The translations under genes were made by a program, and so were the position numbers. Of a DNA stretch of 64,000 nucleotides, positions 46,836 through 61,017 are shown piece by piece. Each line of letters begins with the position of its first letter. The stretch's first letter is position 1. This DNA comes from Sphingopyxis sp. H053 (GTDB lineage: Bacteria > Pseudomonadota > Alphaproteobacteria > Sphingomonadales > Sphingomonadaceae). The stretch lies in NCBI RefSeq assembly GCF_001468225.1, contig NZ_LNRU01000009.1, positions 62,001-126,000 of the forward strand, read 5' to 3'. The notes beneath the pieces were generated by a model, which ran no database searches, had not been told where the DNA came from, and saw nothing but the letters and a program-made list of their open reading frames with translations.

Positions 46836-46933
46836 AAGCAACGGATTGTATGCTGTGTCCAAATAGGAAATCGGGAGCGGGCTATGCTAGTGCCGAATCG
46901 ACCGGATACAGGCGGCCTCCGCCGGCGGGGGCG

Positions 46934-47557
46934 ATGACGTTGCAAAAGATCGTGATCGCGATCACCGGCGCGACAGGATCAATCTACGGTCTGCGTCTGC
47001 TGGAAATGCTGCGTGAAGATCCGAGCTGCGAAACGCACCTCGTGGTCTCCCAGGCAGCCGTGCTCAACATCCGCGAGGAACTGCCGCTAACGCTGAAAAA
47101 ATTTGAAGCGTCGGCTGACGTGGTTCATAACATACGGAATGTCGGCGCCAGTATCGCGAGCGGATCGTTTCTCTGTGACGGCATGATTGTCGCGCCCTGC
47201 TCCATGCGCACCCTTGCGGCGATCGCCAATGGGCTCTCCGACAATCTGATCACCCGAGCTGCCGACGTCATGCTCAAGGAGCGTCGTCCATTAACGCTCA
47301 TGGTGCGAGAGACGCCCCTGAACCTTGCCCATCTTCGAAACATGGCAGCCTGTACCGAAATGGGGGCGATAATTTTCCCACCCGTCCCGGCGTTCTACGC
47401 TCGGCCATCGTCGATCGACGAAATCGTCGACCATAGCTGCATCCGGGTCCTCGACCAGTTCGGCATCCATCGGGCCGCCGATCGCCGATGGACCGGACTG
47501 AAGGGCGCAGAAGTGATGCCTCTGGCGCAGGCGGATAAATCGGAAAGGACAATTTGA
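46934..47557 (+). CDS. ubiX: UbiX-type flavin prenyltransferase
   Basis: 207 residues from ATG 46934. IAITGATGSIYGLRLLEML near residue 7, the VVSQAAVLNI segment, APCSMRTLAAIANGLSDNLI near 93 and RPLTLMVRETPLNLAHLRNM near 119 are the UbiX/VdcB/Pad1 motifs. It makes prenylated FMN, the cofactor of UbiD-type decarboxylases; the UbiD partner is at 51173. With VdcD at 52648 the three genes match the vanillate/4-hydroxybenzoate decarboxylase set, here interrupted by a flavoprotein and an aldehyde dehydrogenase. Confidence 0.94.
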   Translation: MTLQKIVIAITGATGSIYGLRLLEMLREDPSCETHLVVSQAAVLNIREELPLTLKKFEASADVVHNIRNVGASIASGSFLCDGMIVAPCSMRTLAAIANGLSDNLITRAADVMLKERRPLTLMVRETPLNLAHLRNMAACTEMGAIIFPPVPAFYARPSSIDEIVDHSCIRVLDQFGIHRAADRRWTGLKGAEVMPLAQADKSERTI

Positions 47558-48129
47558 TGGCGGCAGTGCTGATGCGCCGGGAGCTATTGGGCGCCGGGGT
47601 TTTTTGCGCGGGTCTGGTTGGAGCCTCCCGCTTCCGGTCAGGAAGTGCGGCGGACGAAGAGGCCGTTCTCGTCGTCAGCCAGCCAAGGGTTGAGGAAAGC
47701 GAGCGTTTTGCCGCGTCCCTCATATCGTCTTCGAAAAAGTCTCTCGCGCTGGATGTCGGAAGCGGGCTGGATGAGTTGCTTGGCGACTGGCCCCGCGGCG
47801 CGCAGGTGATTGCAGGCCTGACCTCCGACCCCGCTGCAATGATTGCGGCCCAGTTGCTCATCGAGAGTGGAGCGGAGCCTTTGCTTCGATGGGAACATTC
47901 CTATGAGGCGGGCCGCTGGACACACCGCATCGGCGCCGCCCCCGGCTTGGGCGCGCTCCCGCAATATACTTGGCCCGCCGTCGTTGCGCAGAAAGTTCGC
48001 GATGAGCTGGACGGCCACAAATCATCACCGCGCCGGGCCGCGTGCATTTCGGGGGAATGTGCACTCGCCTCGAATAGCCCCGGCCTACTTGTGACCTGGG
48101 CCTTTCGGCTTGCCGGAGAAACGCGGTGA
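47557..48129 (+). CDS. Unknown exported protein with twin-Arg-like leader
   Basis: 190 residues from ATG 47557, which overlaps the ubiX stop by one base (TGATG) with GGAAAGGA upstream. MRRELLGAGVFCAGLVGA near residue 6 looks like a Tat or Sec leader, cleaved after about residue 30. The mature part has no motif I recognise; it is moderately acidic with one Cys pair region (AACISGECA) near residue 171. It is coupled by GTGA to the VAO-type flavoprotein, so an accessory or maturation role for that enzyme is possible. Confidence 0.6.
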   Translation: MAAVLMRRELLGAGVFCAGLVGASRFRSGSAADEEAVLVVSQPRVEESERFAASLISSSKKSLALDVGSGLDELLGDWPRGAQVIAGLTSDPAAMIAAQLLIESGAEPLLRWEHSYEAGRWTHRIGAAPGLGALPQYTWPAVVAQKVRDELDGHKSSPRRAACISGECALASNSPGLLVTWAFRLAGETR

Positions 48130-49679
48130 GGCCGCCGCTGCCCGAGGGAATTGCGGCGGCCGACTTTTCACGGGCCCTCGATGAACTCGCAGGCGTCGTC
48201 GGCAAAACCTGGGTTTTCGTCGACGAGCTTCCGCTGTCGACTTACCGCGACGCGTATTCGCCGCTTGCCGATGGCACTCTGCTTCCTTCTGCCGCCGTCG
48301 CTCCGGAAAGCGTCGAACAGGTGCAGCGGATCCTTGCCATCGCCAACAGCTTCCGATTGCCGATCTGGACCATCGGGACTGGACGGAACTTCGCATATGG
48401 CGGGCCGGCACCCCGCAAATCCGGATATCTTGTCCTCGATCTGAAACGGATGAACCGGATCATCGAAGTCAACGAAAAATATGGATATGCGCTGGTCGAG
48501 CCGGGCGTTTCCTACATGCAGCTTTATCGCCACCTGCAGCGGATCGGCAGCAAATTGTGGATCGATCCGGCAGCGCCCGCCTGGGGCGGCGTCATGGGGA
48601 ACGCGCTCGAGCATGGCGCCGGCTACACGCCCTATGGCGATCACTTCATTATGCAATGCGGGATGGAAGTTGTGCTTGCCGATGGCCAGGTCGTTCGCAC
48701 GGGCCAGGGAGGCATCTCTAACAGCAAGCATTGGCAGATCAGCAAACATGGGCTCGGACCGCAGTTCGATGGCATGTTCACCCAGTCGAATTTCGGCGTC
48801 GTCACCAAACTCGGCATCTGGCTGATGCCGGAGCCGCCCGGTTACAAGCCGTTCATGATCACCTTTCCACGCGAAGAGGATCTCGAGCAGATTTTCGAGA
48901 TCACGCGCCCGCTCAAGGTGAATCAGGTGATCCCTAACGCAGCGGTCGCGGTCGACCTATTGTGGGAGGCCTCGGCGAAGACCACGCGGCGACATTATTA
49001 TGACGGCAAGGGGCCGCTCCCGCCGTCGATCCGGACGAAGATCGCCGCGGACCTCAATCTCGGGATGTGGAATTATTACGGCGCCCTCTACGGACCACCG
49101 CCCATGATCGAGAATAATTGGAAATTGATCGAGGAGGCATTCAGCAACATTCCGGGCGCCAAGTTCCACTTCGCGCGCGAGAATGATCCTGCGTGGGATT
49201 ATCGCGTTAAGCTCATGCGCGGCGAACCCAATATGACCGAGTTCAGCATCATGAACTGGATCGGCGGAGGGGGACACGTCAACTTTTCCCCGATTTCCGC
49301 GCCCGACGGGGCGGAAGCCTTGGCTCAATATAATCTGATCAAGAAACGCTGCCACGAATTCGGCTTCGACTACATCGGGGAGTTTCTGGTCGGCTGGCGG
49401 GACATGCATCACATTTTGATGATCATGTACAATCGGGCCGATGAAACGATGCGCAAGAGCGCCCACGATCTCTTCAGTCTCCTGGTGGATGAGGCCGCGG
49501 CGGCGGGGTTCGGCGAATATCGTACTCATCTCGCCTTCATGGACCAGATTGCTGGAACCTATCGTTACAACGACGGGGCGCTTTGGGATCTCCATCACCG
49601 CCTGAAGGACGCTCTCGATCCCAACGGCATTCTTTCGCCCGGAAAGCAGGGCATATGGCCGAAGTCGGCGCGTCCCTGA
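48126..49679 (+). CDS. VAO/4-cresol methylhydroxylase-type flavoprotein
   Basis: 517 residues from GTG 48126 (GTGA overlap). FAD loop GTGRNFAYGG near residue 88, GNALEHGAGYTPYGDH near 155-170, WRDMHHILMIMYNR near 420, whose His pair lies where VAO links FAD covalently, GEYRTHLAFMDQI near 460 (substrate-binding Tyr-Arg) and DPNGILSPGKQGIWP near the end. This family oxidises para-hydroxybenzylic carbons (vanillyl alcohol, eugenol, 4-alkylphenols). The downstream cytochrome c argues for dehydrogenase use as in 4-cresol methylhydroxylase. The acid equivalent to VAO Asp170 appears to be Ala. Confidence 0.9.
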   Translation: MRPPLPEGIAAADFSRALDELAGVVGKTWVFVDELPLSTYRDAYSPLADGTLLPSAAVAPESVEQVQRILAIANSFRLPIWTIGTGRNFAYGGPAPRKSGYLVLDLKRMNRIIEVNEKYGYALVEPGVSYMQLYRHLQRIGSKLWIDPAAPAWGGVMGNALEHGAGYTPYGDHFIMQCGMEVVLADGQVVRTGQGGISNSKHWQISKHGLGPQFDGMFTQSNFGVVTKLGIWLMPEPPGYKPFMITFPREEDLEQIFEITRPLKVNQVIPNAAVAVDLLWEASAKTTRRHYYDGKGPLPPSIRTKIAADLNLGMWNYYGALYGPPPMIENNWKLIEEAFSNIPGAKFHFARENDPAWDYRVKLMRGEPNMTEFSIMNWIGGGGHVNFSPISAPDGAEALAQYNLIKKRCHEFGFDYIGEFLVGWRDMHHILMIMYNRADETMRKSAHDLFSLLVDEAAAAGFGEYRTHLAFMDQIAGTYRYNDGALWDLHHRLKDALDPNGILSPGKQGIWPKSARP

Positions 49680-49709
49680 TGCCACGCGACCCACGCTCCC
49701 AGGAGATTC

Positions 49710-51173
49710 ATGATGCGTAAGGACGAAGTGAGGGGGCTTGACCACTGGATCGGCGGGTCACCGGTTGCCCCTGGCGACGGCGCTTATTTCGAAAGCCTGA
49801 ACCCGATTGACGACAGTCTCTATTCCCGGGCGGCTGCCGGGACTCCGGCCGACGTCGATCGAGCAGTTGAGGCGGCCGACACGGCCTATCGCCGGAACCG
49901 CGACCTTTCCGCAGCCGCGCGCGAGGGATGGATGATAAAGGCTTCGGCTCTCATGGAGCGTGACGCATCGCAATTTGCCGACACGCTCGTTGATGAAATC
50001 GGCTCGCCGATCGCAAAGGCCGGTTTCGAGACCCGGTTCGCCACGAGCTTCTTGCGCGCGGCCGCAGGCGTTCCCCGGCGCATTCGCGGCGAGACTATTC
50101 CATCCGATGCGCCCGGCCGCGTCAGCATGAGTTTTCGCGAACCGGTCGGAGTCGTTGCCGGCATTACGCCGTTCAACGTCCCGCTGATCAAGGGGATCAA
50201 GCAGTCGGCCATGGCGCTCGCGACGGGCAATGCCTTCGTCCTGCTTCCGTCGGAAGCGGCACCGCGCGTGGCCGATCAACTCGCGCGCCTCTGGGAGGAA
50301 GCAGGCGTGCCCGAAGGCCTGTTCAACATTGTATATGGGGACGGCGCCAAAATCGGCGATGCGCTTACTGGCCATCCCAAGGTTCGCGCGATCACCTTCA
50401 CGGGCTCGTCCCGGGTCGGGCGGCATATCGCGCGCATCGCAGCTGAAGGCTTCAAGAAATATACCCTCGAACTCGGCGGGAAGAGTCCTCTCGTCGTCTG
50501 CGCCGACGCCGACATCGAAAAGGCCGTGGCGGCCGCGATCTTCAGCATCTTCATGTATCAGGGCCAGGTGTGCATGGGGGCGTCGCGTATCTATGTCGAA
50601 CGTCCGATCTTCGACCGGTTCTCCAAGGCTTTCGCTGCTGCAGCTGCGAAACTCTCATCCGGCGATCTGCGCGATCCCGCAACGATGCTGGGTCCTATCA
50701 TTTCCGGGCGTCAGCGCGCGCGCGTGCGGCAGCATATCGATGACGCCCGCGGCAAGGGAGCCGAAATACTCGCCGGGGGCGAATGGACGGGCCATGTGTG
50801 CCATGCGACCATCCTCTCCGGTGTCCAGCCCGGGATGGAGGTAGCGGCCCAGGAAACCTTCGGGCCGGTCACGTCGCTCTATCCGTTCGATGACCTCGAT
50901 GAAGCCCTCCGGCTTGCCAACGACACCGAATATGGCCTGAGCGCCGCGATCTTCACGCGCGACATCGACAAGGCGCTTCGGTTCGCTCGCGAAATCGAGT
51001 CCGGGATGGTCCATGTCAACGCGCCCACGTTGCACGACGAGCCTCACGTGCCGTTCGGCGGTTCCAAGGCTTCCGGATTTGGCCGCGAGGGCACCGAGGC
51101 CGATCTTGAAATCATGACCGAGTGGAAATGGGTGAGCATCCAGACCGACGCGGCCGTTGGGGGAGCACACTGA
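49710..51173 (+). CDS. Aromatic aldehyde dehydrogenase (vanillin/benzaldehyde type)
   Basis: 487 residues; AGGAG precedes two adjacent ATGs at 49710 and 49713. Catalytic Asn in TPFNVPLIKGIKQ near residue 154, Glu in LELGGKSP near 253 and Cys in QGQVCMGASR near 287. Sequence style matches vanillin and salicylaldehyde dehydrogenases. Between the flavoprotein and UbiD it would turn the aldehyde made by the flavoprotein into the acid that UbiD decarboxylates. Its stop overlaps the ubiD start (TGATG). Confidence 0.9.
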   Translation: MMRKDEVRGLDHWIGGSPVAPGDGAYFESLNPIDDSLYSRAAAGTPADVDRAVEAADTAYRRNRDLSAAAREGWMIKASALMERDASQFADTLVDEIGSPIAKAGFETRFATSFLRAAAGVPRRIRGETIPSDAPGRVSMSFREPVGVVAGITPFNVPLIKGIKQSAMALATGNAFVLLPSEAAPRVADQLARLWEEAGVPEGLFNIVYGDGAKIGDALTGHPKVRAITFTGSSRVGRHIARIAAEGFKKYTLELGGKSPLVVCADADIEKAVAAAIFSIFMYQGQVCMGASRIYVERPIFDRFSKAFAAAAAKLSSGDLRDPATMLGPIISGRQRARVRQHIDDARGKGAEILAGGEWTGHVCHATILSGVQPGMEVAAQETFGPVTSLYPFDDLDEALRLANDTEYGLSAAIFTRDIDKALRFAREIESGMVHVNAPTLHDEPHVPFGGSKASGFGREGTEADLEIMTEWKWVSIQTDAAVGGAH

Positions 51174-52651
51174 TGTCTCAAGGAAAGTCATCCATTCGCG
51201 CCAACCTCGCCGATCGCGCAAGAGGCGTCGGATCGCTGCGCGATTTTCTGGAGCTCCTCGAAGAATATGGGCAGGCCATTACCTGGACGGACCGGATCAT
51301 GCCCGAGCCCGACCTGCGCAACATTGCCGTGGCCGCCTCGCGCGATGTCAACCATGCTCCTGCGATCCTGTTCGACAATATAGCGGGCTACCCCGGGAAA
51401 CGCACGGTTGTCGGGGTGCACGGCTCTTGGGATAATATCGCGCTGCTCCTGGGTCAGCCAAAAGGCACCACAATCCGGGATATGTTCTTCGACATAGCCG
51501 GGCGCTGGGGCGATGCCTCTGCCCAGATCAGCCGCGTTTCCGAGGGGCAGGCGCCTGTCCATGAGTGCCGGCACGAGGAGAATATCAATCTCTACGACCT
51601 GCTGCCCGTGTATCGCATCAACGAGTTTGACGGGGGTTTCTATTTGGCCAAGGCGTCGGTGGCTTCGCGCGATCCGTTGGATCCGGAAAATTTCGGCAAG
51701 CAGAATGTCGGCATCTACAGGCTTCAGATCCAGGGTCCCGATCGCTTCAGCCTGATGACGATCCCGTCGCATGACATGGGACGCCAGATCCTCGCAGCGG
51801 AACGCGAAGGCCTGCCGCTCAAGATCGCCGTCATGCTCGGCAACCATCCCGGCGTCGCGTTGTTCGCAGCAACACCAATCGGCTACGACGAGTCCGAATA
51901 TGCTTATGCCTCGGCGATGATGGGAGCGCCGATCCGGCTGACGAATTCCGGCAACGGTATCGACATCCTCGCGGATAGCGAGATCGTCATCGAAGCCGAG
52001 CTCCAGCTTGGTGAGCGCGTCTTCGAAGGGCCGTTCGGTGAATTCCCAGGATCCTACAGCGGCGTGCGACGCGCCCCTGTCTTCAAGGTGACCGCCGTCT
52101 CGCACCGAAAGAACCCTATATTCGAGAATATCTACATCGGTCGTGGCTGGACGGAGCACGACACGTTGATCGGTCTTCATACGTCGGCGCCCATCTATGC
52201 ACAGTTGCGCCAGACCTTTCCCGAAGTCACCGCGGTGAATGCGCTGTACCAGCACGGACTGACAGCGATCATCGCGGTCAAGAACCGGATGGCGGGCTTC
52301 GCAAAATCCGTGGCGCTCCGCGCGCTTGGTACGCCCCATGGCCTCATGTATCTGAAAAATCTGATCATGGTCGATGGCGATATCGATCCCTTCGATCTCA
52401 ACCAGGTCATGTGGGCCCTGTCGACCCGGACGCGCGCGGAGGACATCATCGTCCTGCCGAACATGGCGATGGTCCCGATCGACCCCGCTGCCGTGACGCC
52501 GGGGAAGGGGCACCATCTGATTATCGACGCAACAAGCTATCTCCCGCCCGATCCGGTGGGCGAGGCACATCTGGTCACCCCGCCCACCGGCCAGACTATC
52601 GATGACCTCGGCAAACGGATCCAGGCGATGCAACGAGGCGAGACGCTATGA
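51173..52651 (+). CDS. UbiD-family prFMN-dependent decarboxylase (VdcC-like)
   Basis: 492 residues from ATG 51173. LRDFLELLEEYGQ near residue 22, the Arg of GIYRLQIQG near 178 and the two Glu of VIEAELQLGERVFEGPFGEFPG near 276-290 give the Arg-Glu-Glu active site of UbiD enzymes. Together with UbiX and the VdcD-like protein it resembles VdcBCD/BsdBCD, which reversibly decarboxylate vanillate or 4-hydroxybenzoate without oxygen. A 4-base overlap couples it to the VdcD gene. Confidence 0.92.
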   Translation: MSQGKSSIRANLADRARGVGSLRDFLELLEEYGQAITWTDRIMPEPDLRNIAVAASRDVNHAPAILFDNIAGYPGKRTVVGVHGSWDNIALLLGQPKGTTIRDMFFDIAGRWGDASAQISRVSEGQAPVHECRHEENINLYDLLPVYRINEFDGGFYLAKASVASRDPLDPENFGKQNVGIYRLQIQGPDRFSLMTIPSHDMGRQILAAEREGLPLKIAVMLGNHPGVALFAATPIGYDESEYAYASAMMGAPIRLTNSGNGIDILADSEIVIEAELQLGERVFEGPFGEFPGSYSGVRRAPVFKVTAVSHRKNPIFENIYIGRGWTEHDTLIGLHTSAPIYAQLRQTFPEVTAVNALYQHGLTAIIAVKNRMAGFAKSVALRALGTPHGLMYLKNLIMVDGDIDPFDLNQVMWALSTRTRAEDIIVLPNMAMVPIDPAAVTPGKGHHLIIDATSYLPPDPVGEAHLVTPPTGQTIDDLGKRIQAMQRGETL

Positions 52652-52887
52652 CTGCACCCCATTGCCCGCGATGTGGCTCCGACGCTTCGATCCCTGATTT
52701 CCGCGGCGTCGATGGCGAGAAAACGATTTGGACAATCCATCGCTGCACGGCCTGCTGTTTCTCTTGGCGCGACAGCGAGCCGGCGAGTGCGATCGACCCG
52801 CGTGTGCGCGCCGAGGAGTTCGCGATCGATGTTTCGGAGCCGGATCTTTTTCCGATCGTCCTGCAACCTTCGACCATGCGGAAATAG
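52648..52887 (+). CDS. vdcD: VdcD/BsdD-like small decarboxylase subunit
   Basis: 79 residues. CPRCGSDASIPDFRG near the start, WTIHRCTACCFSWRDSEPAS near 28-47 and a short acidic tail reproduce the VdcD/BsdD pattern with two CxxC pairs, probably a zinc ribbon. In Streptomyces and Bacillus systems this protein is needed for full decarboxylase activity. It is directly coupled to the UbiD gene. Confidence 0.88.
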   Translation: MTAPHCPRCGSDASIPDFRGVDGEKTIWTIHRCTACCFSWRDSEPASAIDPRVRAEEFAIDVSEPDLFPIVLQPSTMRK

Positions 52888-52899
52888 GGGGTGATCAAG

Positions 52900-54360
52900 A
52901 TGGACGCAAATCGCCAAGCCGCCGCGCTCGACGCGCTAGAAGCACTGGTCGGTGCCGATGGGGTAACGCGCGATCCGGCGGCGCTCGCACCCTTCCATTC
53001 CGGAGTCGCCCTGCCCCTGGGTATCATCGCGCCGCGCGACACCGAGCAACTTGCCAAGGTCCTCGCGGTGGCGAGCGAGGCCGGAGCGGCGCTTCAACCT
53101 GTGTGCCGCGCGGTCGCAGGTCAGGAGGTGGCGGCACGCGACAAGATCATATTGCTCGATCTTGGCCGCATGAATGAGATTCTCGAGATCAATGAGAACT
53201 TGGCTTACTGCCTCGTCGAGCCAGGCGTCACCTTTCGGCAACTCTCCGAACAGATAGGCGAGCGGGGGCTCAAGCTCTGGGTCGATTGCCCGGGTGAGCC
53301 CGACGAATCGGTGGCGAGCGCCTTTCTGAAGCGGCGCGTGGGCTATACCCCATATGCCGATCATTATCTTATGCAATGCGGGCTTGAGTTGATGCTGGCC
53401 GACGGCCGCAGTGTCCGGACAGGGATGGGTGCTATGCCCAAGAGTACCTGCTGGCAGCTCTTCAAATTTGGTTACGGGCCCTGGATCGACGGGCTCTTCA
53501 CACAATCCGATCTTGGCGTCGTGACCAAGCTCGGCCTCTGGCTCATGCCCCAGCCCCCGGCAGCGCAATCCTTTGCTGTCACGGTGCCGGACGAAGACGA
53601 TCTTGGCAAACTTCTCGATGTACTGGGCCCGCTCAAGACCAATATGGTCGTCCCCAATGGCGTGGCGGTGGCAAATGCGCTGCACGAAGCAGCGCGTTCG
53701 GGCAAGGTACGCCGCGACTTCGGCGGCACCGGCCCAATGTCCGCCGGCGAGGTTCGAAAAGCCGGGGAGTCGATCGGGCTTGGCTACTGGACTCTTTACG
53801 GCTCGCTTTACGGGCTCCCCGACAATGTTCGCATCGCTTGGTCGATGGTCCAGGACGCGTTCGCATCGATCAAAGGCTCGCGGGTGCTGGCCGCTCCCGC
53901 AGCCGGGATGGAAGGACTGTGGGCGTGGCGAAAAGGCATGATGCTTGGTTCGGTCGGTAATGCACTTGGCCGCCCTTCGGCCTGGGCCGGAGGATCCTCT
54001 CTCGACATCGGCCCCATCAGCCCGGTTGATGGCAAGGAAGGGCTTCGCCTTTATGACTTGTCGCGCGATATTTCCGGCCGGCACGGTTTCGATTTTGTCG
54101 GAGAAACGAATGCCGTCTGGCGCTCTGCCCAGCATCGGCAGTATTTGTGCTTCGATGGCAGTCCCGCGGGCAGTAAACGGGCGAGAGACTGCGCTATCGA
54201 GCTGATCGATGCGCAGGCAGGTGCCGGATTTGGACAGACGCACGTCGAGCCGGCGCTCGCCGCCTCTGCTAGGGCGACCTATGAAAGCGGCGCGATAACT
54301 CAACTGCACGCGCGCGTGAAACGCGCGCTCGATCCCGCGAACCTCTTTCTGTCGGCCTGA
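52900..54360 (+). CDS. Degenerate VAO-family flavoprotein paralogue
   Basis: 486 residues from ATG 52900, with AGGGGGTG upstream. It is homologous along its length to the flavoprotein at 48126 (VEPGVTFRQL, RRVGYTPYADHYLMQCG, FTQSDLGVVTKLGLWLMP, ALDPANLFLS). The FAD loop GTGRNxxYGG is replaced by PVCRAVAGQE near residue 69. The GN before the GYTPY block is SA. The MHH segment reads AQHR, and the EYRTH Tyr-Arg pair is deleted. It may bind FAD weakly or not at all and could be a structural partner of the active flavoprotein; that is inference. Confidence 0.8.
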   Translation: MDANRQAAALDALEALVGADGVTRDPAALAPFHSGVALPLGIIAPRDTEQLAKVLAVASEAGAALQPVCRAVAGQEVAARDKIILLDLGRMNEILEINENLAYCLVEPGVTFRQLSEQIGERGLKLWVDCPGEPDESVASAFLKRRVGYTPYADHYLMQCGLELMLADGRSVRTGMGAMPKSTCWQLFKFGYGPWIDGLFTQSDLGVVTKLGLWLMPQPPAAQSFAVTVPDEDDLGKLLDVLGPLKTNMVVPNGVAVANALHEAARSGKVRRDFGGTGPMSAGEVRKAGESIGLGYWTLYGSLYGLPDNVRIAWSMVQDAFASIKGSRVLAAPAAGMEGLWAWRKGMMLGSVGNALGRPSAWAGGSSLDIGPISPVDGKEGLRLYDLSRDISGRHGFDFVGETNAVWRSAQHRQYLCFDGSPAGSKRARDCAIELIDAQAGAGFGQTHVEPALAASARATYESGAITQLHARVKRALDPANLFLSA

Positions 54361-54383
54361 CCTCAAACAAGGGAATCGAAAGC

Positions 54384-54725
54384 ATGAAGATGGGATTGCT
54401 GGCGGTCGCTCTGCTGATGCTAACCGCTTGTTCGAAATCGTCAGATGCGGACAAACCGGACGGTGCAGAATTATATGCCCTGAACTGCGCGGGTTGTCAC
54501 GACCCGGGCCCGGGTCATCCCGCCACTATGCTGCTTGAAGAGATGGAGCGACCCGTTGCGCCCCTCATTGGCCGCAAGGACCTCGACAAGGACTATGTCC
54601 ACTCGGTCGTCCGAAACGGGCTGATCGAAATGCCGCCATTCCGCCCAACCGAGCTGACAGACGCCGATGTGGATCTTGTATTCACCTACATCAAGACGGC
54701 AAAGGGTCCTTCGAACGCTCCTTGA
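54384..54725 (+). CDS. Lipoprotein c-type cytochrome (PchC-like)
   Basis: 113 residues. A lipoprotein signal peptide with lipobox LTAC (Cys16), the heme motif CAGCH at 35-39 and a likely Met ligand in IEMPPF near residue 80. Small cytochromes c of this size are the electron-accepting subunit of 4-cresol methylhydroxylase (PchC). Its place after two VAO-family genes supports that role, passing electrons to the respiratory chain from the periplasm. Its last 35 bases overlap a convergent gene. Confidence 0.88.
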   Translation: MKMGLLAVALLMLTACSKSSDADKPDGAELYALNCAGCHDPGPGHPATMLLEEMERPVAPLIGRKDLDKDYVHSVVRNGLIEMPPFRPTELTDADVDLVFTYIKTAKGPSNAP

Positions 54726-59654: not shown

Positions 59655-60881
59655 TTACCATGCGCGATCACGCGCCATATTCGCCAAACGAATGATCGCC
59701 GCCAGATGATCGTTCCAACTCTTCATTGCTTCGCGCTTCTCGTCCTTCCAGTCGTGGCGCTGGTAGATACCGGCGACGCCCGCGCGGGAACCTCCGACGT
59801 GATTGAGCACAGCTTCGGTCACTTCAAATCGAACGCCTAGCCGTTGAAACCCGGTTGCAAGAGTTCGTCTCAAGTCATGCAGTCGCCAGTCCGGTAACGG
59901 TTCGCGGCCGTCTTGCGACATAAGCAGGTCGAGCTTGATCTTGCCTTTGCTATATCCGGTGAACCTTCCGCCCCTGGAGGTCGTGAACATCCTGCCGCTA
60001 CGCGGCCAGATAGCCGACCCGGCAACCTCGTCGAGGATCGCAACTGCAAGTTCGTTGAGCGGAATTCGGTTGGGCTCGCCATTCTTTGCCCGTTCGCCGG
60101 GCAGGGTCCATAGGAGATCTTTACGGTTGAGTTCCTCCCAACGCAGCGACGAAACCTCCTCTCGTCGCTGACCGGTGACGATCAGAAGGCGGATGATGGG
60201 TCCGAAACAGGAATGCGTGTTTGGCGCCGCCATCCAGATGCGGCCAAGCTCCTCGTCTGAAAGCCAGCGATCGCGAGGTTTGACCGGGGGCGGGGTTTCC
60301 ATGCCTTCCATCGGACTCCGATCGATATCTCCCCGGCTGACGGCCCAGCGCAAAAGGCGGCGCAAAACAGCGAAGACGTTACGGATATTTGCGATCTGCG
60401 CGCGCGGCATGCGGTCGAAGACGGCAACGATGTCGATTCGCGTAAGATTGGGAAGGGGCTTTGATCCCAAGACCGGCTTTACATGCAGCTCGAGGCTGCG
60501 CTTGACGAGGCGCCTCCAGCCTTCTCCAACGCAGGCCTCAGCGAAGCGATCAGAGTAATTATCGAAGGCTAGATCGACCGACTCTCGCCGTCGTTGCCGC
60601 TCTGCTTCGCCTGGATCGATTCCCTGGGCGATCAGAATAGCCAGTCGCTCCGCTTCGGCTCTGGCGGTGGCTGGCGTCCATGGCGAGCCATGGCTGCCTA
60701 TCGTGTAGCGACGCGTCTTAGATTCGCGACCGCCCATTCGGAATTGCAACACGTAAGACACGGCGCCAGCTTTGGTTCGCTTTGCGCCAAAACCCTTTAT
60801 GCTATCATCCCAAAGAATGTCATGTTGCCCGCTCGAAATGAGAGCATCGACCGACCGTTTTGTGATCTTTCCGCTTGCCAT
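59655..60881 (-). CDS. Tyrosine recombinase/integrase (P4-like, DUF4102 N-terminus)
   Basis: 408 residues from ATG 60881, with GGGAGA upstream; the frame extends to 60968. The N-terminal KITKRSVDAL arm-binding domain includes DSIKGFGAKRTKAGAVSYV, typical of phage P4-like island integrases. Catalytic residues: Arg in TGQRREEVSSLRW near 250, HDLRRT near 335, a His in HVGGSR and Tyr in GIYQRHDW near 375-385. It reads away from trmB, with core genes beyond it, as at the edge of an integrated island. Confidence 0.9.
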   Translation of the reverse strand: MASGKITKRSVDALISSGQHDILWDDSIKGFGAKRTKAGAVSYVLQFRMGGRESKTRRYTIGSHGSPWTPATARAEAERLAILIAQGIDPGEAERQRRRESVDLAFDNYSDRFAEACVGEGWRRLVKRSLELHVKPVLGSKPLPNLTRIDIVAVFDRMPRAQIANIRNVFAVLRRLLRWAVSRGDIDRSPMEGMETPPPVKPRDRWLSDEELGRIWMAAPNTHSCFGPIIRLLIVTGQRREEVSSLRWEELNRKDLLWTLPGERAKNGEPNRIPLNELAVAILDEVAGSAIWPRSGRMFTTSRGGRFTGYSKGKIKLDLLMSQDGREPLPDWRLHDLRRTLATGFQRLGVRFEVTEAVLNHVGGSRAGVAGIYQRHDWKDEKREAMKSWNDHLAAIIRLANMARDRAW

Positions 60882-60966
60882 AAATTGGTCTCCCAATACG
60901 GCGTTTCCAGCAATCACCCGGCAATCACCGTGGCGGAAATTGCCGCGTAATTGGGGAAAAGATAGC

Positions 60967-61017
60967 ATAGGGAGTGGCTATAAAAAACTAGCCTTTTCAA
61001 CCCTATAGCACTCCTAT
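60967..61017. repeat. Imperfect inverted repeat at the island/core junction
   Basis: A 16-base arm (ATAGGGAGTGGCTATA, 60967-60982) pairs with a 14-base arm (TATAGCACTCCTAT, 61004-61017) with two single-base bulges; a nested GGCTA/TAGCC stem is followed by TTTT. It lies between the integrase promoter and the trmB stop. It could be a terminator for trmB or an integrase core or arm site; no second copy was found by eye. Confidence 0.4.

Follow-up and report, generated by a model that had tools for sequence, protein, structure and literature searches.

The window analysed here, a stretch of 64,000 nucleotides from Sphingopyxis sp. H053 (contig NZ_LNRU01000009.1, positions 62,001 to 126,000), carries a single run of eight genes on the + strand (46925-54725), which extends from a UbiX-type prenyltransferase gene to the gene of a lipoprotein cytochrome c. 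Two of these genes encode paralogous flavoproteins of the VAO/PCMH type: FP1, whose active site is intact, and FP2, a degenerate paralogue. We consider it likely that FP2 is a conserved alpha-prime subunit without flavin adenine dinucleotide (FAD), which pairs with FP1 and the c-type cytochrome in a 4-alkylphenol (p-cresol-like) dehydrogenase. The original prediction for this DNA had placed the three genes at 48126-54725, and these coordinates were correct:

48126..49679, + strand: FP1, catalytic VAO/PCMH flavoprotein of the 4-phenol-oxidising subgroup, 517 aa, predicted cytochrome-dependent dehydrogenase (PDB match, active-site motifs)
52891..54360, + strand: FP2, degenerate paralogue, 489 aa from GTG or 486 aa from ATG (motif losses, modelled fold, clade, dN/dS)
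54384..54725, + strand: lipoprotein mono-haem c-type cytochrome, 113 aa (Pfam Cytochrome_CBB3; lipobox, CAGCH, MPPFRP)

A single CxxCH, an MPPFRP segment and the lipobox LTAC are present in the cytochrome, which had been predicted as a lipoprotein.

FP1 looks active, as had been proposed, and the active-site motifs of the VAO/PCMH 4-phenol dehydrogenases are present in its sequence. The nearest PDB match was 8s7p, a vanillyl-alcohol dehydrogenase (VAD; E-value 4e-205), and the other nearest structures were eugenol oxidase, VAO and PCMH. The Pfam domains FAD_binding_4 (116.7 bits) and FAD-oxidase_C (95.7 bits) were both found above their cut-offs. In FP1 numbering, which is used throughout, the protein holds Y91 and Y465-R466 of the phenolate site, G86-N88 of the FAD loop, G158-N159 of the GN block and H384, the residue for covalent FAD attachment. 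We compared 35 distinct sequences of the FP1 type, comprising 31 partners of FP2 and 4 other plasmid homologues. N88, N159, Y465, R466, G506 and H428 were each present in 35/35, and H384 in 33/35, the remaining two having the Ser of PCMH types. At position 376 FP1 has Met where the PCMH-like sequences L047, L049 and L058 (loci are given by L numbers) have Tyr, and it has the VAO-type His384 instead. P151, which lies at the flavin N5 position and marks dehydrogenases of the VAD type, was found in 34 of the 35 sequences. In VAD, replacement of the equivalent Pro by Leu made the dehydrogenase an oxidase (PMC7617285). FP1 is therefore expected to hand its electrons to a cytochrome. The one sequence without P151 (L048:5001-6581, on a Rhodococcus opacus plasmid) has Leu at this position and no cytochrome gene annotated adjacent, which fits an oxidase.

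FP2 is 36% identical to FP1 over 492 aligned columns. It matched the same PDB structures as FP1, far more weakly, and by sequence VAD 8s7p was again the nearest. Among 33 distinct FP2 sequences (one of which, L040, ends at a contig edge before Y465), N88, N159, H384, H428, Y465 and G506 were each retained in 0/33, P151 beside the flavin N5 was lost in 33/33, and R466 was kept in only two, both from Paraburkholderia. The C-terminal PG motif was also lost. Flanking residues were partly retained (G86 in 26/33; a Tyr aligned with Y91 in 11/33), and the GYTPY, MQCG and RTGMGA blocks were largely retained. FAD_binding_4 was still detected in FP2 (70 bits versus 117 in FP1), whereas FAD-oxidase_C was not. 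The original prediction had listed the FAD loop, the GN before GYTPY, the Tyr-Arg pair and the context of a His pair as lost. All of this was confirmed except for the second His of the pair (H415 of FP2), which was invariant in the alignment of sphingomonad FP2s (alignment A2); the first His is gone.

The losses were also evaluated without reference to motifs. In a set of 103 non-FP2 homologues, 65 columns were at least 90% conserved, and of these the FP2 of the window keeps 46 and loses 19. Eleven conserved columns were lost in 14/14 FP2-type sequences: P79, P96, G100, N159, N222, F387, Y465, D473, P505, G506 and G509. This motif-free test gave losses at the same places, which ruled out chance or an alignment artefact as their source. 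Judged by these residues, FP2 looks unable to hold FAD or to bind a phenolate. As start of FP2, the ATG at 52900 is likelier because of its ribosome-binding site; the GTG at 52891 is possible.

The gene is full length in the operon, as had been predicted, and its product was modelled as a whole fold. The AlphaFold2 model of FP2 had a mean predicted local distance difference test (pLDDT) score of 80.1 and a predicted template modelling (pTM) score of 0.80. Foldseek matched it to 8s7p (E-value 2.5e-45), and Z scores were 37.8 to 9ffk, 36.9 to the VAD mutant 8s7n (root-mean-square deviation 2.5 over 466 residues) and 35.7 to PCMH 1dii (2.6 over 463 residues). The model thus suggests that FP2 keeps the VAO/PCMH family fold.

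A phylogeny of the second copy had been proposed as a check and was run. In a careful tree of 52 sequences, the 14 FP2-type sequences formed one group (support 100/100) and their 14 FP1 partners formed another (99/98), which had no unpaired member. The same two clades were seen in a quick tree of 118 sequences with 90 other homologues (FP2 99*; FP1 partners 95*, again without an unpaired member). When the Paraburkholderia FP2 sequences or those of two further loci (the triads described below) were dropped, support was 100/100 and 100/99 for FP2 and 99/97 and 99/96 for the FP1 partners; these trees had 36 and 35 sequences, and groups were counted against all other sequences. The FP2s are thus a conserved clade. 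Separate duplication and degeneration in each lineage was rejected by the approximately unbiased (AU) test on 37 of the 52 sequences, with p values of 9.5e-6 for Paraburkholderia, 2.7e-4 for the triads and 4.3e-6 for the sphingomonads. The two clades and the AU result indicate that the FP1-FP2 pair is old, of single origin as far as the data go, and inherited together.

A scan of one genome per species for FP2 loci yielded 39 contigs with an FP2 at 57-100% identity, nearly all from Sphingomonadales. The genera included Sphingopyxis, Novosphingobium, Sphingobium, Croceicoccus and Erythrobacter; one metagenome-assembled genome (MAG) was labelled Hoeflea and one only Alphaproteobacteria. The order FP1, aldehyde dehydrogenase, UbiD, FP2, cytochrome was constant as far as each contig extends. 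The upstream FP1 gene was full length in 35/39 contigs; two contigs end before it, one holds a partial copy at its end and one has a rearranged start. In 38/39 the cytochrome gene adjoined FP2, one MAG having it in two separate frames; in the remaining contig it is cut off by the contig end. The FP2 frame was open in 39/39, one being cut by the contig end. Two loci with split frames, L004 (a MAG; orf191, UbiD and cytochrome) and L033 (UbiD), were counted as having these genes, and the FP1 label for L031, L034 and L040 in the gene-order comparison was a cross-match of FP2, which was excluded from the counts. The rearranged copy, in Sphingopyxis sp. H073 (L009:3033-4789), encodes an FP1 without its first ~65 residues. 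Inspected by eye, the upstream DNA shows the start of a Rieske-type oxygenase running into the FP1 gene in another frame, by recombination or misassembly. The cluster is also found on plasmid pNL1, which is described as carrying catabolic genes for m-xylene, p-cresol, biphenyl and naphthalene (PMC3946609).

Selection was estimated from pairwise ratios of nonsynonymous to synonymous substitution rates (dN/dS, NG86 method), and it should be considered that some pairs had dS >1 or near saturation and others very few changes. In 11 pairs, dN/dS was 0.07-0.16 for FP2, 0.025-0.073 for FP1, 0-0.10 for UbiD and 0.11-0.38 for orf191, the small protein encoded upstream of FP1; for the cytochrome it was 0.07-0.46 in the 10 pairs where it was defined. 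FP2 is under purifying selection, has long been conserved and is co-inherited with FP1.

Relatives were also found outside the sphingomonad operons. In Paraburkholderia aromaticivorans BN5, two plasmids show the gene order FP1, cytochrome, aldehyde dehydrogenase, VdcC, VdcD, an FP2-type gene and UbiX, and the FP2-type product is 34% identical to FP2 of the window. On pBN3 the FP1 gene (L044:3985-5352) is short (455 aa) and abuts an IS5 transposase gene, so that this copy may be broken; the FP2 frame there is open. Two Sphingomonadaceae loci, L051 and L052, hold a tight triad of FP1, cytochrome and FP2, with no decarboxylase gene within the stretch examined.

The search of the order covered 396 genomes; a family member at 1e-30 was present in 50 and an FP2-type gene in 11. 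FP1 was near FP2 in 11/11 of the latter. Nine of these pairs were assigned by score and place (FP1 about 4.7 kb upstream), of which only the window's own was read as sequence, and two by tree and motif. FP2 thus travels with FP1 and the cytochrome, as had been supposed, both across the contigs and in the order-wide search. Every match above 250 bits in this search was examined as sequence or lies within the nine scored pairs. The weaker ones were examined in part, and as one triad FP2 reached only 245 bits, the search may have overlooked other genes of this type. A search of 398 genomes across the phylum gave family members at 1e-40 in 11; by score, FP2 was confined to the window's own genome. 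In 299 genomes of one family (taken as Burkholderiaceae), 73 had a match at 1e-40, one each, and no pair was seen; three of these matches were examined as sequence and all were of the active type. Altogether 80 regions were examined as sequence, including 6 that had come up in the phylum or family search. When 119 sequences (101 family open reading frames (ORFs) from L043-L129 and 18 reference sequences) were screened by motif, 11 FP2-type sequences and one fragment of 130 residues were flagged; the crude pattern missed the other three FP2 sequences owing to a chance 'AYG'.

The remaining genes of the run are:

46925..47557, + strand: UbiX-type flavin prenyltransferase, hydroxyarylic acid decarboxylase subunit B (NCBIfam PRK06029 above cut-off; VdcB 257 bits, under the cut-off of 290)
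47554..48129, + strand: orf191, small protein with twin-Arg N terminus, candidate Tat carrier (no Pfam or NCBIfam match)
49710..51173, + strand: aldehyde dehydrogenase (Pfam Aldedh; conserved operon place)
51170..52651, + strand: UbiD-type decarboxylase subunit C, VdcC (NCBIfam VdcC 670 bits, cut-off 650)
52648..52887, + strand: decarboxylase subunit D, VdcD, 79 aa (NCBIfam VdcD 54.7 bits, cut-off 30; translation)

The genes thus follow each other as UbiX-type, orf191, FP1, aldehyde dehydrogenase, subunit C, subunit D, FP2 and cytochrome c. In the assignment to VdcBCD, C and D are above the NCBIfam cut-offs, and B is above the cut-off for the UbiX family and below that for VdcB. Apart from FP1 and FP2, a search of the window's genome gave no further member of the subgroup and a single weak match at 1e-9. 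The neighbourhood is an aromatic-degradation island with genes for Rieske oxygenases, catechol 2,3-dioxygenase, acetaldehyde dehydrogenase and HpaH- and HpaI-like enzymes. To the right of it lies a phage-type integrase gene (59655-60968, - strand; Pfam Phage_integrase and Arm-DNA-bind_3), where the GC content drops to 56%. This suggests that the island may be mobile.

A haem c protein matures in the periplasm, and no signal peptide was visible by eye in FP1 or FP2 of the window. Signal peptides were judged here by eye or by a simple pattern and not by a dedicated predictor. In orf191, R8-R9 were invariant in 16/16 aligned sequences (15 distinct, since those of the window and L007 are identical) and are followed by a stretch that is hydrophobic by eye. 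The orf191 model was poor (pLDDT 64.4) and had no PDB match at an E-value of 0.001. In the L051 and L052 triads, FP1 has its own twin-arginine translocation (Tat) signal and FP2 has none, a pattern expected if FP2 is exported together with FP1.

A Tat survey covered 100 family ORFs, five of them FP2s (one of the 101 was dropped as a fragment). A cytochrome-like ORF was nearby in 67/100. Among these 67, 16 had their own Tat signal, 2 of them with an adjacent Tat-like small ORF, while 38 of the 51 without a signal had such an ORF (Fisher p 1.5e-5, for sequences that are related). The pattern made errors in both directions: it was positive for 11 of the 31 sequences that lack both a signal and a cytochrome (two of these hits were UbiX genes), and it missed the ORF that precedes FP1 in Paraburkholderia and has a Tat-like N terminus by eye. 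Small proteins with a Tat signal beside signal-less PCMH-type flavoproteins were seen at 47554-48129 of the window, L045:8904-9473, L047:4389-4967, L058:6397-6915, L062:4101-4757 and elsewhere. A comparison of orf191 with three small proteins beside other flavoproteins gave no clear homology (Sulfuricurvum, E-value 0.0038 and a probability of 8.8%; nothing for the other two). By its position, orf191 may be a Tat carrier for the signal-less flavoproteins, and export in trans is possibly general for PCMH-type flavoproteins without their own signal. A Tat hitchhiker is described for another FAD dehydrogenase, the glucose dehydrogenase of Burkholderia cepacia (PMC6719666).

Since FP2 has been kept for long in several bacterial lineages, it is probably a non-catalytic partner subunit and not a dying gene. 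For the enzyme we infer the following scheme. FP1 would bear the sole FAD, predicted to be linked to His384, and would take a hydride from a p-cresol-like substrate. Water would add to the quinone methide, and the electrons would go to the lipoprotein cytochrome, docked to the complex presumably in the periplasm. FP2, devoid of FAD, would take the position of the second protomer in a dimer of the VAO/PCMH type. From there it would link FP1 to the cytochrome and, by forming half of the wall, help to shape the substrate chamber, which in such dimers lies between the subunits. VAD stays dimeric with the chamber at the monomer interface (PMC7617285). The aldehyde dehydrogenase would oxidise the 4-hydroxybenzaldehyde-type product to a 4-hydroxybenzoate-type acid, which VdcBCD would convert to a phenol and CO2.

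Several observations weigh against this interpretation. The dN/dS of FP2 exceeds that of FP1 by a factor of 1.6 to 5, and this is as compatible with a relaxed role as with a structural one. FP2 sits on a long branch, and the tree programme warned of long branches meeting within the FP2 group. The AU test shares the long-branch pull of the model, and its groups were named after the first tree had been seen. The attachment of FP2 among the active homologues had low support (51 in the tree of 118 sequences). Stretches 149-157 and 182-199 of the FP2 model had a pLDDT <50, and 18 of the 45 sequences in the underlying alignment were FP1, which helps to force the family fold, so that the fold of FP2 is partly assumed. 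The lipobox of the cytochrome is missing in the Paraburkholderia relatives and in L051, and FP2, which has no signal, could remain in the cytoplasm. Finally, FP2 and cytochrome were nearly identical between L036 and L038 (dS 0.02 and 0.00), while UbiX, orf191, FP1 and aldehyde dehydrogenase had dS >1.2 and UbiD 0.66. With FP1 differing by 10% beside a near-identical FP2, FP2 need not track FP1 closely; the FP2-cytochrome block was probably exchanged on its own.

The near-identity of this block also speaks for FP2 acting apart from FP1, as a homodimeric carrier of the cytochrome, a chaperone for FAD loading or a cytoplasmic assembly factor. The lack of a visible signal peptide on FP2 and its place directly 5' of the cytochrome gene in sphingomonads would fit as well. 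However, in Paraburkholderia the cytochrome gene follows FP1 and not FP2, in the triads it lies between both, and the co-occurrence of the three genes fits one complex. We therefore regard an action apart from FP1 as unlikely. A rather improbable alternative is that non-covalent FAD sits in a remodelled pocket of FP2, which would then catalyse a second reaction, e.g., on the alcohol intermediate. Family members with non-covalent FAD exist (PMC7617285, PMC12724174), FAD_binding_4 is still detected in FP2 and the GYTPY, MQCG and RTGMGA blocks are largely left, but its FAD loop is shortened or rewritten, the GN, the Tyr-Arg pair, the PG tail and the FAD-oxidase_C match are gone, and P151 is absent from every FP2 sequence. 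That FP2 is a decaying duplicate without function, a case already considered in the original prediction, was rejected as highly improbable, since, despite the missing catalytic residues and the faster evolution compared with FP1, the frames are open in all contigs (one cut by the contig end), the same key losses recur in 33 distinct sequences, dN/dS is about 0.1 and the origin is common to sphingomonads, Paraburkholderia and the triads.

The partner-subunit interpretation has a precedent. Johannes et al. (2008) reportedly purified the PCMH of Geobacter metallireducens as alpha-alpha'-beta2 with an FAD-free alpha', which was judged inactive. This alpha' is said to have been described as an isoform, whereas FP2 shows its losses at the sequence level and occurs in sphingomonads and Paraburkholderia. 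An architecture with a second, FAD-free flavoprotein is thus not wholly new, and the claim of novelty in the original prediction was not supported. Like the locus described here, Geobacter PCMH (PcmI/PcmJ/PcmG, compared by description only) has two flavoprotein paralogues and a c-type cytochrome. PcmI and PcmJ have 41% and 39% identity to BpfA, which is 100% identical to a protein of Sphingobium yanoikuyae SJTF8 (PMC12724174). Since FP2 itself is 37.7% identical to the SJTF8 homologue, identity alone cannot tell whether PcmJ is degenerate. A literature search, based on excerpts, found no description of a degenerate second flavoprotein in sphingomonads, which is not proof that there is none in print.

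PchCF of Pseudomonas putida (PDB 1dii, 1wve) also consists of a flavoprotein and a c-type cytochrome with the same fold and the same expected chemistry. Unlike the system described here, it is alpha2beta2 with Tyr-linked FAD in each flavoprotein subunit (PMC13416013, PMC12724174), whereas FP1 has a His as in VAO and is accompanied by the gene of a degenerate paralogue. VAD of Marinicaulis flavus (8s7p) is the nearest solved relative of both FP1 and FP2, and its P151 is kept in FP1. It is a dimer of one flavoprotein, and the excerpts mention no degenerate partner (PMC7617285). P. aromaticivorans BN5 has a similar gene set on pBN2 (L046), with FP1, cytochrome, aldehyde dehydrogenase, VdcCD and the FP2-type gene. 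When this strain was grown on toluene, its cells gave detectable 4-hydroxybenzoate, for which the authors propose a route through pchCF and pchA; the excerpts name only PchCF and PchA and no second flavoprotein (PMC6351602). The printed pchCF is likely the same as the L046 genes. Two PCMH-related subunits within one enzyme occur in glycolate oxidase (GlcD/GlcE). In this enzyme and in the flavoprotein pair BzS1_12970/12990, unlike here, the second subunits (GlcE in the former) probably bind a flavin, and an Fe-S protein takes the place of the cytochrome c as partner. The BzS1 pair is benzene-induced, and its union in one complex is an assumption of the authors (PMC13416013).

A more far-reaching version of the partner-subunit interpretation is offered tentatively, as we hold it to be doubtful in its full extent. 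FP1 and FP2 would form an obligate heterodimer of a catalytic and a non-catalytic subunit, in which the pseudoenzyme FP2 sets the substrate range or the electron transfer through the interface chamber and the docking of the cytochrome. The pair would cross the membrane folded via Tat, with the signal in trans (orf191) or in cis (FP1). It would have arisen once and spread over Alpha- and Betaproteobacteria, partly on catabolic plasmids, and would represent a second, sequence-defined alpha-alpha' form.

FP2 offers a clear and testable case of a probable pseudoenzyme subunit from a flavoenzyme family that has been studied in depth; its own clade and that of its partner are defined, and its losses are listed at the residue level. 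The annotation of FP2 as 'FAD-binding oxidoreductase' should be treated with caution, and heterologous expression of FP1 and cytochrome alone may lack a needed subunit. The Tat observation suggests a route by which signal-less PCMH flavoproteins reach the periplasm. If the proposed role of FP2 is true, its sequence would show how a flavoenzyme of this kind can manage with FAD in only one of every two flavoprotein subunits, as is reportedly the case in Geobacter.

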